From assembly GCA_021816155.1 (NCBI GenBank), contig JAKAZA010000009.1, forward strand, positions 1-49,722: DNA of 49,722 bases. Direction: 5' to 3'. The notes under the pieces are model-generated. The model was not told the DNA's origin and made no database searches. It was given only the letters and a program-made list of their open reading frames with translations. Positions 10,451 through 16,350 of this stretch are shown here, piece after piece (the first letter of the stretch is position 1; each line of letters begins with the position of its first letter). The translations under genes were made by a program, and so were the position numbers. The DNA comes from Pseudomonadota bacterium. Its GTDB lineage: Bacteria; Pseudomonadota; Alphaproteobacteria; Caulobacterales; Caulobacteraceae.

Positions 10451-11494
10451 TCAGCCGGCGGGCGGATAGGCGTGCGATCCGCCCCACGGGTCCTCGACGC
10501 TGACGCAGGCGTCCAACTCGCCCGTCAGATAGCCCGGTCCGACCGGAACCTTGCCATGCCCGCCCGGCAGGTCGAGCACATAGGTTGGCTGGCAGAGGCC
10601 CGAAACGCGCCCGCGCAGGCGCCGCATCAGCGCCTGGCCCCTGGCCAGATCCACGCGGAAGTGGCTCGTTCCGGGCGCCAGGTCGCCGTGGTGCAGATAG
10701 TATGGCTTGATCCGGGTCTCGACGAAGGCGCGCATCAGCGCGACCAGCGTCTCGGCGTCGTCGTTCACGCCGGCCAGGAGCACGGTCTGGCTCACCATCG
10801 GCATGCCGGCGTCGACGATCCTGGCGCAAGCCGCGCGCGCGGCGGGCGTCAGTTCGCGGGGATGGTTCGCGTGGAGCGCGACGTAGGTCGTCTGCGTGGG
10901 GCTCTTCATGGCGGCGACCATGGCGGCGGTTATCCGCGGGGGGTCGGCGACCGGGACGCGGGTGTGAAAGCGCACGATTTTCACGTGCCGTATGGCGGCC
11001 AGGCGCCCCATCAAGTCTGCGAGGCGGCGGGCGGACAGCATCAGCGGATCCCCGCCGGTGAGGATCACCTCCCAGATCGCCGGCGTTGCCGCGATGTACG
11101 CAAGGGCGGCGTCGAGCTCCTGGGCCACCAGCGGCGCGCCCTTGCCCGGGCCAACCCGCTCGCGGCGAAAGCAGAAGCGGCAGTAGACGGCGCAGGTGTG
11201 CGTCACCTTCAGGAGCGCGCGGTCCGGATAGCGGTGAACGACGCCCGGCGCCGGGCTCATTGCGTCGTCGCCGATCGGGTCGGCCGATTCGCCCGGCGCC
11301 GGGGTCAGTTCCTGAACGCTCGGCATGAACTGGCGCGCGATCGGGTCGGCCGGATCCGACTGATCGATGAGCGCGGTCAGCGCGGGCGTCAGGGCCACGG
11401 CGTACCGCTTCGCCACCGGCTCGAGCACGGCGACCCCTCCGGCTTCCAGGAGGCCGGCGTCGGCGAGGGCTTGCGGCGAGCGGAGCGTGGTCAT
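10451..11494 (-). CDS. epmB: EF-P beta-lysylation protein EpmB, a lysine 2,3-aminomutase
   Basis: A radical-SAM, PLP-dependent aminomutase of 347 residues that converts (S)-alpha-lysine to (R)-beta-lysine for attachment to EF-P. The iron-sulfur cluster motif is C101-AVY-C105-RF-C108 inside HTCAVYCRFCFRR. Downstream are ILTGGDPLMLSARRL and FHTRVPVADPPRIT, which are typical of the KamA family. The Lys in LDLPGGHGKVPVGP near the C-terminus is at the PLP-lysine position. Starting at ATG 11494 matches the usual EpmB size. The same frame stays open much further upstream, but that stretch lies inside epmA. The ATGA overlap with the epmA stop shows translational coupling. The neighbours epmA and efp define the role as EF-P modification rather than lysine catabolism. 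Confidence 0.93.
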   Translation of the reverse strand: MTTLRSPQALADAGLLEAGGVAVLEPVAKRYAVALTPALTALIDQSDPADPIARQFMPSVQELTPAPGESADPIGDDAMSPAPGVVHRYPDRALLKVTHTCAVYCRFCFRRERVGPGKGAPLVAQELDAALAYIAATPAIWEVILTGGDPLMLSARRLADLMGRLAAIRHVKIVRFHTRVPVADPPRITAAMVAAMKSPTQTTYVALHANHPRELTPAARAACARIVDAGMPMVSQTVLLAGVNDDAETLVALMRAFVETRIKPYYLHHGDLAPGTSHFRVDLARGQALMRRLRGRVSGLCQPTYVLDLPGGHGKVPVGPGYLTGELDACVSVEDPWGGSHAYPPAG

Positions 11495-12540
11495 GGGCCG
11501 TCCGGAAGCGGTGTCCATAGCACGTCGTCGATTTTTGTCGCTCCGGTGGCCAGCATCACCAGACGGTCGAAGCCGAGCGCCGCGCCGCTGGCGGCCGGCA
11601 TGTCGGGCAGCGCGGTCAGGAAGTCCTCGTCGATCGGATAGCGCTCGCCGTAGATGCGCGCCTTCTCGTCCATGTCGGCCTCGAAACGGCGCCGCTGCTC
11701 GGCCGCATCGGTCAACTCGGCGAAGCAGTTCGCCAGCTCCACGCCGCAGACATAGACCTCGAACCGTTCGGCGACGCGCGGATCGCCCGGCTTGGCGCGC
11801 GCCAGCGCGGCCTCGGGCAGAGGATACTCGCAGAGGATCGTCGGACGCCCGATGCCAAGCGCCGGTTCGACCTTCGCCGCGATGACGCGGCTGAAGATGT
11901 CCGACCAGGTGTCGTCGTCGGCGACCCGCAGGCCGGCCGTGCACGCCGCACCGTCGAGCGCGGCCCGGTCGGGTTCGCCGCCGGGCAGGGTCGCCATCAG
12001 GTCGATGCCCGCGAACCGCTCGAACGCCTCCGCCACGGTGATCCGCTCGGGCGCGGCCAGCGGGTCGCACGCACGGCCCCGAAAACCGAACCGCCGCGTC
12101 CCCGCGGTCTCAGCGGCCAACGCGATCAGCGCCGCGCAGTCCTCCATGAGCCGCTCGTACGGCTCGCCGGCCCGATACCACTCCAGCAGAGTGAATTCGG
12201 GGTGGTGCAGCGGTCCCCGCTCGCGGCCCCGCCAAACGCGCGCCAGCTCGAAGATGCGCCGCTCGCCCGCCGACAGCAGTTTCTTGGCCGCGAACTCCGG
12301 CGAAGTCCGCAGATAGAAGGGACGCCGTTCGCCCGCAGGCGACACCCAGTCCGTGGCGAAGGCGTGCAGGTGCGTTTCGTTGCCGGGCGAGATCTGCAGG
12401 GCGGCGGTTTCCACCTCGGTGAAGGCGCGCGCCTCGAACCAGGCCCGGACGGCGCTCGTGATCCGTCCGCGCGCGATCAGGCGGGGCCGACGGTCGCGGT
12501 GGGTGTCGGCGCGCTGCCAGGCGGGTGGGGGAAGGGGCAC
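11491..12540 (-). CDS. epmA: EF-P--(R)-beta-lysine ligase EpmA (GenX/PoxA)
   Basis: A class II lysyl-tRNA-synthetase paralogue that lacks the anticodon-binding domain and ligates beta-lysine to the conserved Lys of EF-P. The catalytic core is visible: [13 protein letters not shown], then [14 protein letters not shown] and [14 protein letters not shown] (class II motif 2 region). Near the C-terminus [12 protein letters not shown] and [15 protein letters not shown] (motif 3 region) follow. The length of 349 residues, with no N-terminal OB fold, separates it from true LysRS. Translation starts with GTG at 12540, and the stop overlaps the epmB start by four bases. The 110-base gap to the divergent efp could hold promoters for both directions. 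No epmC hydroxylase is seen nearby. Confidence 0.93.
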
Positions 12541-12603
12541 GCAGCGGCCTTAGCACGGCTTTGGCGCCCGATCGCGCTGGTGATTGCGGGCCGATTGAGC
12601 TAG

Positions 12604-12615
12604 TTGCCGCGGCAA
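12604..12615. promoter_or_regulatory. perfect 12-bp palindrome upstream of efp
   Basis: TTGCCGCGGCAA is a perfect dyad in the epmA-efp divergent gap, 35 bases before the efp start. It could bind a dimeric regulator or form a small hairpin in the leader. In such GC-rich DNA a 12-bp palindrome can arise by chance, so this is only a candidate. Confidence 0.2.
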
Positions 12616-12650
12616 ACTTGGGCGATCGGCCCCGGAACCGAGGAGTTTTC

Positions 12651-13217
12651 GTGAAGGTAGCGGCCAGCTCGCTTCGCAAAGGCAGCGTCGTCGATCTAGA
12701 CGGCAAGCTGTACGTCGTGCTCACGGCGCAGAACATCCACCCGGGCAAGGGCACGCCGGTGACCCAGCTCGACATGCGGCGCATATCCGACGGCGTGAAG
12801 GTGTCGGAGCGCTACCGCACCACGGAGCAGGTGGAGCGCGCCTTCGTCGACGAGCGCGAATATTCGTTCCTCTACCAGGACGGCGAGGGCTACCACTTCA
12901 TGGAGCCCAACACCTACGATCAGGTCGCCGTGCCGGCCGAGATCATCGGCGAGGCCGACAAGTACCTGCAGGACGGCATGCTGGTGCACATCTCGACGCA
13001 TGAGGGCGTGCCGATCGCCATCGAGTTGCCGGCGCGCGTGACGCTGGAGATCGTCGAGACCGAGCCGGTGGTGAAGGGCCAGACCGCATCCGGCTCATAC
13101 AAGCCCGCGGTGCTGAACAACGGCGTGCGGATCATGATCCCAACCTACATCACGACGGGCACCAAGGTGGTCGTCCACACCGAGACCGGCGAATACATGG
13201 AGCGGGCGAAGGAATAG
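12651..13217 (+). CDS. efp: translation elongation factor P
   Basis: EF-P relieves ribosome stalling at consecutive prolines by entering the E-site region and reaching toward the peptidyl-transferase centre. The protein has exactly the typical 188 residues. Domain I (about 1-65) carries the loop HPGKGTP, whose Lys33 matches the Lys34 modified in E. coli. Two OB-like domains follow, ending with [22 protein letters not shown] at 12651 is chosen because GAGGAG lies 6-11 bases upstream and because the N-terminus [11 protein letters not shown] aligns with the family; open sequence further upstream lies in the intergenic gap. With epmA and epmB divergent and adjacent, beta-lysylation of Lys33 is a strong inference. 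Confidence 0.97.
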
Positions 13218-13226
13218 GGGCTGGCG

Positions 13227-13649
13227 GTGACGCAACCGGGTGAAGAGGCAGCGCTCGACCTCACGGGCGACTGGGTGGGCAGTTTCAACTATCCGCGCAC
13301 CCTCCCGCCGGTGGTCTTCCGCGCGACGCTCGACGACGATGGCGGTTGTCTCGTCGGCGCGACCGTTGAGCCGGGGCGGGCGACTAGGGGGGGCGCGGGC
13401 CTGATGCTGACCGCGACGCTGCAGGGACGCCGCGACGGGCGGGCCGTGCGGTTCCTGAAGACCTACGACGCCGTGACGCGGAACCTAGACGCCGTCCGCT
13501 ACGAGGGCCAACTCAGCCCGGACGGGTCGGAGATCGACGGACGCTGGACCATCGTCGGCGCGTGGTCCGGCGAATTCGTGATGGTGCGCAGGGGATTTCC
13601 TTACGCAGCGACCGCACGCAGAGCCGCCGACAAGATCGGCGCGCGGTAG
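13227..13649 (+). CDS. small beta-rich (lipocalin-like) protein of unknown function
   Basis: A 140-residue soluble protein that I do not recognise as a named family. It opens with LTGDWVGSFNYP and alternates short beta-like stretches with turns: PVVFRATLDDDGGCLVG, LMLTATLQGRR, VRYEGQLSPDGSEIDGRW and GEFVMVRRG. The pattern suggests a small beta-barrel or lipocalin-like fold that tests for a ligand. It lies 9 bases after efp and 5 bases before the dimethylformamidase-like gene, so it is probably translated together with that gene. The large protein's relative, N,N-dimethylformamidase, also works with a small subunit of similar length. I see no sequence match between this protein and what I recall of that subunit. 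A partner role is therefore only a suggestion. GTG at 13227 is the start. Confidence 0.7.
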   Translation: MTQPGEEAALDLTGDWVGSFNYPRTLPPVVFRATLDDDGGCLVGATVEPGRATRGGAGLMLTATLQGRRDGRAVRFLKTYDAVTRNLDAVRYEGQLSPDGSEIDGRWTIVGAWSGEFVMVRRGFPYAATARRAADKIGAR

Positions 13650-13654
13650 GCGGC

Positions 13655-15196
13655 GTGCCGGCCTGTTACACCGATCGTCTGAGCGTTCGCCCTGGCGAGC
13701 GCTTCGCGCTCCACGCCAGCGGCGCGTCCGGCCCCTGCGCCCTGGAGGTGACCCGTGTCGGCGCCGGCCGACAGGTGGTGCTGCTGCGCGAGGGGCTGGC
13801 GGTCGGCGACCACCCGACGCCCGAGCACGCCGATCGCGACGGCTGCGGCTGGCCCGTCGCGCTCGAGATCGAGGTGGGGGCGGACTGGGCCAGCGGTTAC
13901 TACGACATCCGGCTGGCCGACCGGGGCGGCGAAGCGGCGCACCACTTCGTCGTCGTGAAGCCGCCGAGGGCCGAACGGCGCGCCCGCGCAGCGTTCGTGC
14001 TCGCAACCAACACCTACCACGCCTACAACCACTGGGGCGGCGCCAACGCCTATTGCGACGTCGACGCGCTGATGAGCCGCCGCGCCGATCTGCCGACCGC
14101 GATGCGGGGCGCGATCGGGGTCCTCTCGACGCGCCGGCCGTTCCCCCAGATGCTGATCGCGCCCCCGGCGGACGTCCCGCGGCTGGTGAACCTGCGCGAG
14201 CGCGGCTTCGAGGAGCGGCCTTTCGCCGGCGACCGCGCCTGGCCGCGCCGCCGGGAGCTGTCGCCCTACGACTCGTCGGCGGGCTTCCTGAACAAATGGG
14301 AGCACAAGTTCGCCGCCTGGGCCGAGGAGGAAGGCCTGGCGCTCGACTACTTCACCGACGAGGATCTCGATCGGGAGCCCGGCGTTCTGGACGGCTACAC
14401 CTGCGTCATCCTCGTCGGACACAGCGAGTACTGGACCGCCGGTCAGCGCGACCAGATCGAGCGGTTCGTCGACGGTGGCGGGCGCCTGGCGGTCTTTTCG
14501 GGCAACACGTGCTTCTGGAAGGTGCGCTTCGAGGACGAGGGCGCGCGCTTCATCTGCCACAAGTGGCAAGGGTTCTCGGCCGATCCGGTGGCGGCGCGCC
14601 GCCCGCAGGAGGCGACGCACCTCTGGTCGCACCGCGCCTTCGACCGTCCCGAAGCGTCGATCACCGGGCTGAGCTTCCTGTTCGGCGGCTATCACCGGCT
14701 GGGCCTGTGCGTAGCCCGCGGCGCCGGCGGCTTCACAGTCTACGACGAGCATCACTGGTCGCTCGACGGCGCCGATCTCTTCTACGGCGACGTGATCGGG
14801 GCCGGGCTGCCGCTGATCGGCTACGAGAACGACGGCTGCCGCTTCACCTTCGCCGACGATGGACGTCTCGCGCCCGTCGCGGAGCTGGGCGTGCCAGAGA
14901 ACCTCGAGATCATCGCCGTGGCGCCAGCCGCGTTCGGCGAGGAGGAGGGCCGAGGCTACGCGCCGATCATTCCACCCGAGAATCTGGATGTCATCCTCCG
15001 CGAGGTGTTCGCCGATGAGGGCCCCGCCGCGCGCCGGCGGCTGCTGCACGGCCACGCGGTGATGGCCGCCTTCCGCAGGGGCGCTGGCGAGGTCTTCAAC
15101 GCCGGTACGACCGAGTGGGCGCACGGGCTGGCGGCCGCGGATCCGTTCGTGACGCGGATAACGCGCAACGTTCTCCGGCGCTTCGGCGCCTACTGA
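13655..15196 (+). CDS. N,N-dimethylformamidase beta-subunit-like protein
   Basis: A 513-residue protein that resembles the large subunit of N,N-dimethylformamidase. That enzyme is an iron amidase that splits dimethylformamide to dimethylamine and formate. Recognisable stretches are VLATNTYHAYNHWGGANAYC (about residue 110), EGLALDYFTDEDLD, ILVGHSEYWTAGQRDQIERF and a glutamine-amidotransferase-like core with GGGRLAVFSGNTCFWKVRFE. The N-terminal 90 residues look like a beta-sandwich, as in the family. The true enzyme is longer (about 760), so this is a short homologue and its substrate may be another small amide. GTG at 13655 is chosen because earlier in-frame starts lie inside the preceding gene. 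Family call good; substrate unknown. Confidence 0.75.
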   Translation: MPACYTDRLSVRPGERFALHASGASGPCALEVTRVGAGRQVVLLREGLAVGDHPTPEHADRDGCGWPVALEIEVGADWASGYYDIRLADRGGEAAHHFVVVKPPRAERRARAAFVLATNTYHAYNHWGGANAYCDVDALMSRRADLPTAMRGAIGVLSTRRPFPQMLIAPPADVPRLVNLRERGFEERPFAGDRAWPRRRELSPYDSSAGFLNKWEHKFAAWAEEEGLALDYFTDEDLDREPGVLDGYTCVILVGHSEYWTAGQRDQIERFVDGGGRLAVFSGNTCFWKVRFEDEGARFICHKWQGFSADPVAARRPQEATHLWSHRAFDRPEASITGLSFLFGGYHRLGLCVARGAGGFTVYDEHHWSLDGADLFYGDVIGAGLPLIGYENDGCRFTFADDGRLAPVAELGVPENLEIIAVAPAAFGEEEGRGYAPIIPPENLDVILREVFADEGPAARRRLLHGHAVMAAFRRGAGEVFNAGTTEWAHGLAAADPFVTRITRNVLRRFGAY

Positions 15197-16350
15197 TGCG
15201 ACTGCGTTTTCAGGCCGGCGCTGCTCCCGCCTGACGCGGGTGTCACGCCGAAGGCGGCGAACTGGGCGGCGATGCTCCCGTCCATGTCGTCCGCGGCGGC
15301 CACGTCGTACCGTCCGGCGCTGCGGTCGCCCGCGCAGATCTCGGCGACGCCGAGCATGAAGCGCGAAGACGCCAGCTTGGGATTGCGCCGGAGCGCAGCG
15401 TCGTATCCCGCGATCGCGGCGCGGTAGTCACCCATGCGGAACCGGACGAACGCCACCGAATCGAGTGTGTCCGCGTTGTCCGGGCGCACCTGCAGCGAGC
15501 GCTCGCAGTCGGCGAGCGCCGCGGCGAGGTCGACGTTCTCGATCGCGCGGCTCCAGCAGCGCATGTTCAGGAGGTGGGCGTCGTCGGGCTTCGCGGCGAG
15601 CGCCTTGCCGGCCTCGGCGATGGCGGCCGGATAGCGCCCGGCGTCGAAGTCGGCGTCGGCGGCGAGTCCGAACGTCCGAGCGGCGCGCGCCTGATCGCCC
15701 TTGCCGAGGTAAGCCTGGCCAGCCCCGTCCATCGCCAGCGTGAGGCGCCGATCGCGATGGAGCGCGTCGGCGAAGTCGGCCAGCGCCAGGTCCCAGCGGC
15801 GTCTCGCGAGAAAGACGAGGCCGCGGTTGGCCCACGGGTCGGCCGACGCCGGATCGAGTTCGATCGCCCGGTTCTCGTCGCGCAGCGACTGGACGAAGTC
15901 GCCGCGGCGCAGCTCGAGGACGCCGCGGTTGTTGTAGCCGGCCCACGCGTCCGGATGAAACCGGACCGCCTGGTCGAGGTCCGCCTGAGCCCGGGCCAGG
16001 TCGCCCTGGTCGAGATAGATCATTCCCTGCCCGTTCAGAGCCGCCGCGTCATGCGGGTCGCGCCGGAGGGCGCGGGCGTAGTCGTTTAGCGCGGCCGGGA
16101 GGTCGGCCTCGAGCTGATAGGCCTCGGCGCGCGCTGTCAGGGCTGCCGTCAGCTCGTCCGACCTGGCGGTGGCGATCAGCTCCGTGCAGTGGCCGATGCG
16201 CCGTTCCAGCGCCTGCTTCGACCAGGCTGGCGCCTGACACGAGGCCAGCTGCGCCGATCTGGCCGGTCCCGGCCGGCAGCCAGCGAGCGCCGCGAAAGCG
16301 AAGGCCAGCGCCGCGCAGGCCTTCCATCCATATCCGGCGCGCCCACCCAT
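15190..16350 (-). CDS. TPR-repeat lipoprotein
   Basis: A 386-residue putative lipoprotein. A hydrophobic leader (AALAFAFAALAGC) ends in a lipobox with Cys25, predicting a lipid anchor and periplasmic exposure. About eight tetratricopeptide repeats follow from about residue 60 to 340. Examples are YARALRRDPHDAAALNGQG, DLDQAVRFHPDAWAGYNNRG and NRAIELDPASADPWANRG. Such repeats make a superhelical protein-binding scaffold, so the protein probably serves an envelope complex. It is convergent with the dimethylformamidase-like gene (seven-base overlap) and divergent from guaB. Nothing shows a specific partner. The C-terminus (about 345-386) has no repeat and looks disordered. Confidence 0.8.
   Translation of the reverse strand: MGGRAGYGWKACAALAFAFAALAGCRPGPARSAQLASCQAPAWSKQALERRIGHCTELIATARSDELTAALTARAEAYQLEADLPAALNDYARALRRDPHDAAALNGQGMIYLDQGDLARAQADLDQAVRFHPDAWAGYNNRGVLELRRGDFVQSLRDENRAIELDPASADPWANRGLVFLARRRWDLALADFADALHRDRRLTLAMDGAGQAYLGKGDQARAARTFGLAADADFDAGRYPAAIAEAGKALAAKPDDAHLLNMRCWSRAIENVDLAAALADCERSLQVRPDNADTLDSVAFVRFRMGDYRAAIAGYDAALRRNPKLASSRFMLGVAEICAGDRSAGRYDVAAADDMDGSIAAQFAAFGVTPASGGSSAGLKTQSHQ

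Follow-up and report, generated by a model that had tools for sequence, protein, structure and literature searches.

A short, probably self-sufficient relative of the dimethylformamidase large subunit encoded beside an unrelated small protein in Caulobacteraceae

The window, a stretch of 49,722 nucleotides (Caulobacteraceae, contig JAKAZA010000009.1), carries two closely spaced genes (Table 1), the larger of which encodes a 513-residue protein related to the large subunit of dimethylformamidase. This protein is likely a self-sufficient short amide hydrolase of the Fe(III) type, lying beside an unrelated small protein whose family is usually encoded elsewhere. The source assembly consists of 188 contigs totalling 3.6 Mb. 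Five bases (13650-13654) separate the stop codon of the small gene from the GTG of the large gene, and nine bases the stop of efp from the small gene; the two reading frames, their sizes and their spacing are exactly those given in the preliminary description. An alternative mechanical start of the large gene yields an ORF of 544 residues, and the length of 513 is preferred because most of the 24 relatives in alignment A1 begin to match within the first five residues of the protein starting at GTG 13655. Scans of the interval 12400-15600 yielded no Rfam match and no terminator, and a single promoter-like site, on the opposite strand within the large gene.

Table 1. Features of the locus, in window positions.
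Feature	Position	Strand	Remarks
efp, mechanical ORF	12525..13217	+	homology from near 12651; same-strand neighbour upstream of the small gene
Small gene, 140 aa	13227..13649	+	GTG start; beta-rich by sequence pattern; uncharacterised family
Large gene, short DMFA2_C-family protein, 513 aa	13655..15196	+	GTG start; PF20254 match and fold match
TPR-repeat protein gene	15190..16350	-	convergent with the large gene; closes the gene run

The large protein is a homologue of the dimethylformamidase large subunit, with sequence matches far stronger than chance would give. The protein matches the Pfam family PF20254 (DMFA2_C) at E 9.3e-76, with 256.1 bits over profile positions 4-369 of 374, and passes the curated cut-off of 27 bits. 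PDB entries retrieved by the single sequence are the N-acetyl-(R)-beta-phenylalanine acylase (8i5a/8huy, E 1.2e-10) and the dimethylformamidase DmfA1A2 of Paracoccus (6lvb, E 4e-4; pAMI2 record NC_010847.2); a 25-row profile retrieves the same proteins at about 7e-22 and 1.8e-17, respectively. An AlphaFold2 model computed from 25 input sequences (pLDDT 91.6, pTM 0.93) superposes by VIA-align on 8huy_A with Z 32.9 (2.7 A, 417 residues), and on 6lvb_A with Z 32.1 (2.9 A, 418 residues), where model residues 1-513 fall on 6lvb 5-756. Matches to the acylase and dimethylformamidase range overall from Z 32 to 33 over 414-418 residues, from the first to the last residue of the model, and the runners-up are GH42 galactosidases at Z 14.5 and below. 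In a Foldseek search, ranks 1-9 are all taken by chains of these two proteins. The superposition on 6lvb reveals that the Ig-like domain I and the ThuA-like domain III are both present, and it is the fold of these domains, together with the iron-site residues (less securely for Y440), that the window protein has in common with DmfA1A2. Pfam, PDB searches and model thus agree with the earlier view of a shortened homologue of the dimethylformamidase large subunit. The acylase (8huy, 8i5a, 8i59) is the best match in both sequence and structure, and shares the His and Glu of the site. Its first and last parts match the large protein, while a middle stretch of its about 772 residues is absent from the window protein. 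Identity in the structural alignment is 25%, and the acylase is taken here as a fold relative only. Literature searches with DMFA2_C and PF20254 phrases, or for strain AJ110349, found nothing.

The dimethylformamidase large subunit is composed of domain I (residues 1-73 and 338-383), domain II (74-337), which has a pentraxin fold, and domain III (384-761; PMC7686228). The pentraxin/LamG-like domain II, found in DmfA1A2, is absent from the window protein, in which a Pfam scan found no LamG match. A LamG domain occurs at residues 109-311 of a long homologue (L080), ahead of the PF20254 domain. Since the 513 residues span 6lvb 5-756 and lack LamG, which L080 has, the 250 missing residues correspond to domain II, and no room is left for this domain because 418 of the 513 residues are already aligned. 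The short form is common. By tblastn, 118 plasmid records have one place covering at least 80% of the large protein; plasmid short forms are full-length relatives of about 500-550 residues, 33-40% identical among the 20 matches listed, several of which are already annotated as 'N,N-dimethylformamidase beta subunit family domain-containing protein'. Relatives at E <= 0.001 occur in at least 77 of 385 genomes sampled in the class, and short forms above 200 bits in at least 15; the remaining relatives among those 77 genomes are mostly weak matches, with longer open frames. The large protein thus represents a familiar protein type, in a short architecture that has yet to be characterised.

In dimethylformamidase Fe(III) is bound by Y399, Y440 and E521, a 2-Tyr-1-Glu site; mutation H519A abolishes activity, and N547 is located in the site (PMC7686228). 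In the 25-row profile alignment, Y124, H256, E258 and N284 of the window protein lie opposite positions 399, 519, 521 and 547. Conservation was scored on 72 aligned rows; as three of these are the window protein itself, 69 short-type homologues of other genomes remain. All 69 keep H256, E258 and N284, whereas Y124 is kept in 68 (the exception is a gap), and Y133 in 67 (the exceptions are one Phe and one gap). The short form of Rhodococcus erythropolis (L036) has Phe at the Y133 position, and its other site residues are intact. Y133 was not placed opposite Y440 by any of three automatic alignments, and the equivalence of the two residues is for this reason likely but unproved. It is suggested by motif spacing in two bridging homologues. 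The long homologue L080 has two tyrosines ten residues apart, the second followed by an xxHxDG motif, as is Y440; in L079 they stand nine apart, like those of the window protein, preceded by the short-type GG motif and followed by xxH. Inspection of the metal ligands by alignment, which the preliminary description had recommended, found the equivalents of Y399 and E521, along with those of H519 and N547, and left that of Y440 less secure. Y124, Y133 and E258 are probably the ligands of Fe(III), with H256 and N284 in the site of the predicted amide hydrolase.

We infer from these residues that the metal would be iron, and the reaction amide hydrolysis. The protein consists of an N-terminal Ig-like domain and a ThuA/glutamine-amidotransferase-like catalytic domain III, without domain II. 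In the mechanism proposed, a mononuclear Fe(III) would most likely be held by the phenolates of Y124 and Y133 and by Glu258. The amide carbonyl would be polarised on the metal, and His256 would help water to attack it, with release of acid and amine.

Genes surrounding the short forms provide weak clues to the substrate. Relatives of the large gene were collected at 38 loci from genome contigs, reduced to 37 by exclusion of a 33-residue fragment (L039); 28 of these are flanked on both sides by 5.8 kb or more, and the other 9 by less (minimum 1.3 kb upstream, 0.7 kb downstream). Among the 40 largest clusters of ORFs of at least 90 residues none, the large gene aside, occurs at more than five of the 37 loci. 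A Pfam survey of 15 neighbouring ORFs from nine closer relatives, chosen by length and GC3, returned a mixed set which includes an FMO-like monooxygenase, a Rieske oxygenase, hydantoinase A, a Na+/H+ antiporter, a TetR regulator and a TonB receptor. Similarly, four plasmid short forms sit beside varied genes. Plasmid surroundings include amino-acid or peptide transporters, hydantoinase/oxoprolinase genes and peptidases, in other cases an APC permease with urea-carboxylase genes beyond, and in Dinoroseobacter a CoA transferase beside conjugation genes. Such diversity, and the lack of a known substrate, would fit a protein that keeps the fold and is no longer an amidase, serving as a binding protein or performing other chemistry. 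This is unlikely, though worth keeping in mind, as Y124, H256, E258 and N284 are invariant or nearly so even in short-type relatives that share about 36% identity, the pattern that a working site would produce.

Whether a hydrolase of this kind would act alone is a separate matter. On its own, the large subunit of dimethylformamidase has no activity (PMC7686228), and by analogy the short form might need an unrecognised partner, such as an unlinked, possibly DmfA1-like, small subunit. Three long-form plasmid loci each have a gene of 132-155 residues directly upstream: in Paracoccus aminophilus pAMI2 the 141-aa dmfA1 precedes the large gene and overlaps its start, and genes of 132 and 155 residues are found in Burkholderia and Aminobacter, respectively. 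The three products align with 15 invariant columns. In the window, neither BLASTP nor profile-profile comparison found similarity to DmfA1 in the gene directly upstream of the large gene. DmfA1 has no match in the same genome even at E 10, in a search which used one distant query, had no positive control and thus carries little weight, and the 37 short-form loci lack a recurrent neighbour family, as stated above. We regard an unlinked subunit as quite improbable, and favor a short form that would dispense with a second subunit. Two observations on the long-form plasmids may be added. In pAMI2 the segment 5864-6127 of locus L159 corresponds at 100% to a PLSDB 'carbapenem' entry, the AAK-1 beta-lactamase, and lies inside an annotated IS3-family transposase gene; the label appears to be an error of the database. 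The two dimethylformamidase-type genes of Aminobacter niigataensis strain DMFA1 directly follow a gene for a flotillin-domain protein (L161, 224-1984).

The arrangement in the window, where a small gene precedes the large one, is reminiscent of DmfA1A2, in which a gene of roughly 140 residues occupies the same position, but the two genes lack the association across genomes expected of true partners. The preliminary description suggested that the pair may be a new two-component amidase; the small protein would then be a dedicated accessory subunit. In this species the gap of five bases on one strand points to co-translation, the small protein is close in size to the dmfA1 product, and the dependence of dimethylformamidase on its small subunit (PMC7686228) provides a precedent. 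The distribution of the two genes makes this proposal highly improbable. An HMM of the small family found no member at any of the 37 large-gene loci, and the small gene is likewise missing at four plasmid short-form loci (L087-L090, 8 kb flanks) and at 40 further short-form loci with flanks of up to 1.5 kb, some of whose genomes may belong to the same species as those of the 37 loci. Reciprocally, a large-family ORF was found at 2 of 52 small-gene loci, both of which are the window's own (L001, L040).

Co-occurrence was evaluated in three sets of genomes. Within the family (249 genomes) a relative of the large protein of at least 59% identity is present in at least 34 genomes, and the small protein in at least 30 at E < 1e-10, or at least 39 at the looser threshold of E <= 0.001; three genomes, including the own one, have both. 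Within the order (200 genomes) short large forms above 200 bits were detected in at least 10 genomes, the small protein (E <= 0.001) in at least 50, and both in two. In the class sample the small protein was detected by profile search in at least nine genomes, and coexists with the short large form in one. Leaving aside the own genome, observed and expected co-occurrences are 2 and 3.9 (n=248), 1 and 2.2 (n=199), 0 and 0.3 (n=384), with one-sided Fisher p of 0.93, 0.93 and 1.0 for family, order and class: no excess is seen. The samples overlap and are not phylogenetically independent, and all counts are lower bounds, part of the first-look candidates having been scored in several of the searches (per genome, three for the large and 11 for the small protein in the class, six for the large protein in the family).

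Clear copies of the two genes reside on separate contigs in G202, G206 and G135, the first two of which belong to the same genus as the window, and the same is true of G200, which enters at the looser small-protein threshold. G214 has a weak partial match to the small protein (E 5.9e-4) on the contig of the large gene, about 28 kb away. Where the large match is weak or of the long form, the small gene lies on a separate contig (G100, G127, G136), about 35 kb apart on the same contig (G657), or more than 1 Mb away (G108, G352, G764). Outside the own genome no listed pair is closer than 28 kb. The genes thus occur mostly apart, an outcome that the preliminary description had named as refuting its proposal, and a two-component amidase was set aside as the most likely reading.

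The small family is conserved in its own right. A 36-row alignment (A4) has 11 invariant columns (G14, W16, G18, F31, G44, E48, G67, K78, G94, G105, F117), and the family is widespread in the order, being present in at least 50 of the 200 genomes (loci including L041-L069 and L114-L134). At the sequence level it has neither a Pfam model above chance nor a solved relative: the protein has no match in Pfam or NCBIfam, a Pfam scan of 36 members hit six families, each through a single member (best E 0.003), and the 36-row profile found nothing credible among PDB sequences (best E 0.03). No match to plasmids was obtained by tblastn. The protein is described as beta-rich from its sequence pattern and from a single-sequence AlphaFold2 model of very low confidence (pLDDT 39.1). 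Its LTGxW start may resemble that of avidin/lipocalin-type barrels. Comparison with DmfA1 revealed no similarity (BLASTP E 42; profile-profile probability 0.5%), a further point against a two-component enzyme, and in line with the earlier statement that the small protein is unrelated in sequence to the known small subunit. DmfA1 is mostly helical (PMC7686228); the small protein is unrelated to it in sequence and is not conserved beside the large gene. That a protein of this family was newly recruited, in this lineage alone, to serve a short 2-Tyr-1-Glu iron amidase as accessory subunit, non-homologous to the helical one and taking over its role, is very improbable.

Neighbours of the small gene elsewhere differ by clade. 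At 52 loci, with flanks of about 1.5 kb, none of the 25 largest clusters occurs in more than eight loci, leaving aside ORFs that overlap the small gene. We take the clade-specific neighbours to be genes for MotB and a beta-hydroxyacid-dehydrogenase-like protein, for gamma-glutamyltransferase, for isocitrate dehydrogenase, or for PurD. Fourteen other efp loci of the same genus (L136-L149) have neither the small nor the large gene beside efp, the available downstream DNA being none at L146 and 0.4-1.5 kb at the others. Within the material covered, the order efp-small-large is thus confined to this species. As both genes are found apart in related bacteria, the small gene looks like a chance neighbour, and its product is probably not a functional partner of the large protein. 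As its family is usually encoded elsewhere, its location next to efp is best explained by an arrangement specific to the lineage.

The efp gene is divergent from epmA-like and lysine-2,3-aminomutase-like (epmB) genes (10451-13217), a group which we take to be an EF-P lysylation cassette. Genomes of the same genus carry the EF-P type of the window (70-78% identical), a second type (40-46%), or both (G202, G212). At three loci the second type is followed by an ORF that is presumably inositol-monophosphatase-like.

The large protein is best viewed as a short amide hydrolase that likely needs no second subunit. If the short form is active alone, the unusual 2-Tyr-1-carboxylate iron site would work without domain II and without a small subunit, and this simpler protein would make the chemistry and natural substrates of a common but little-studied family easier to investigate.
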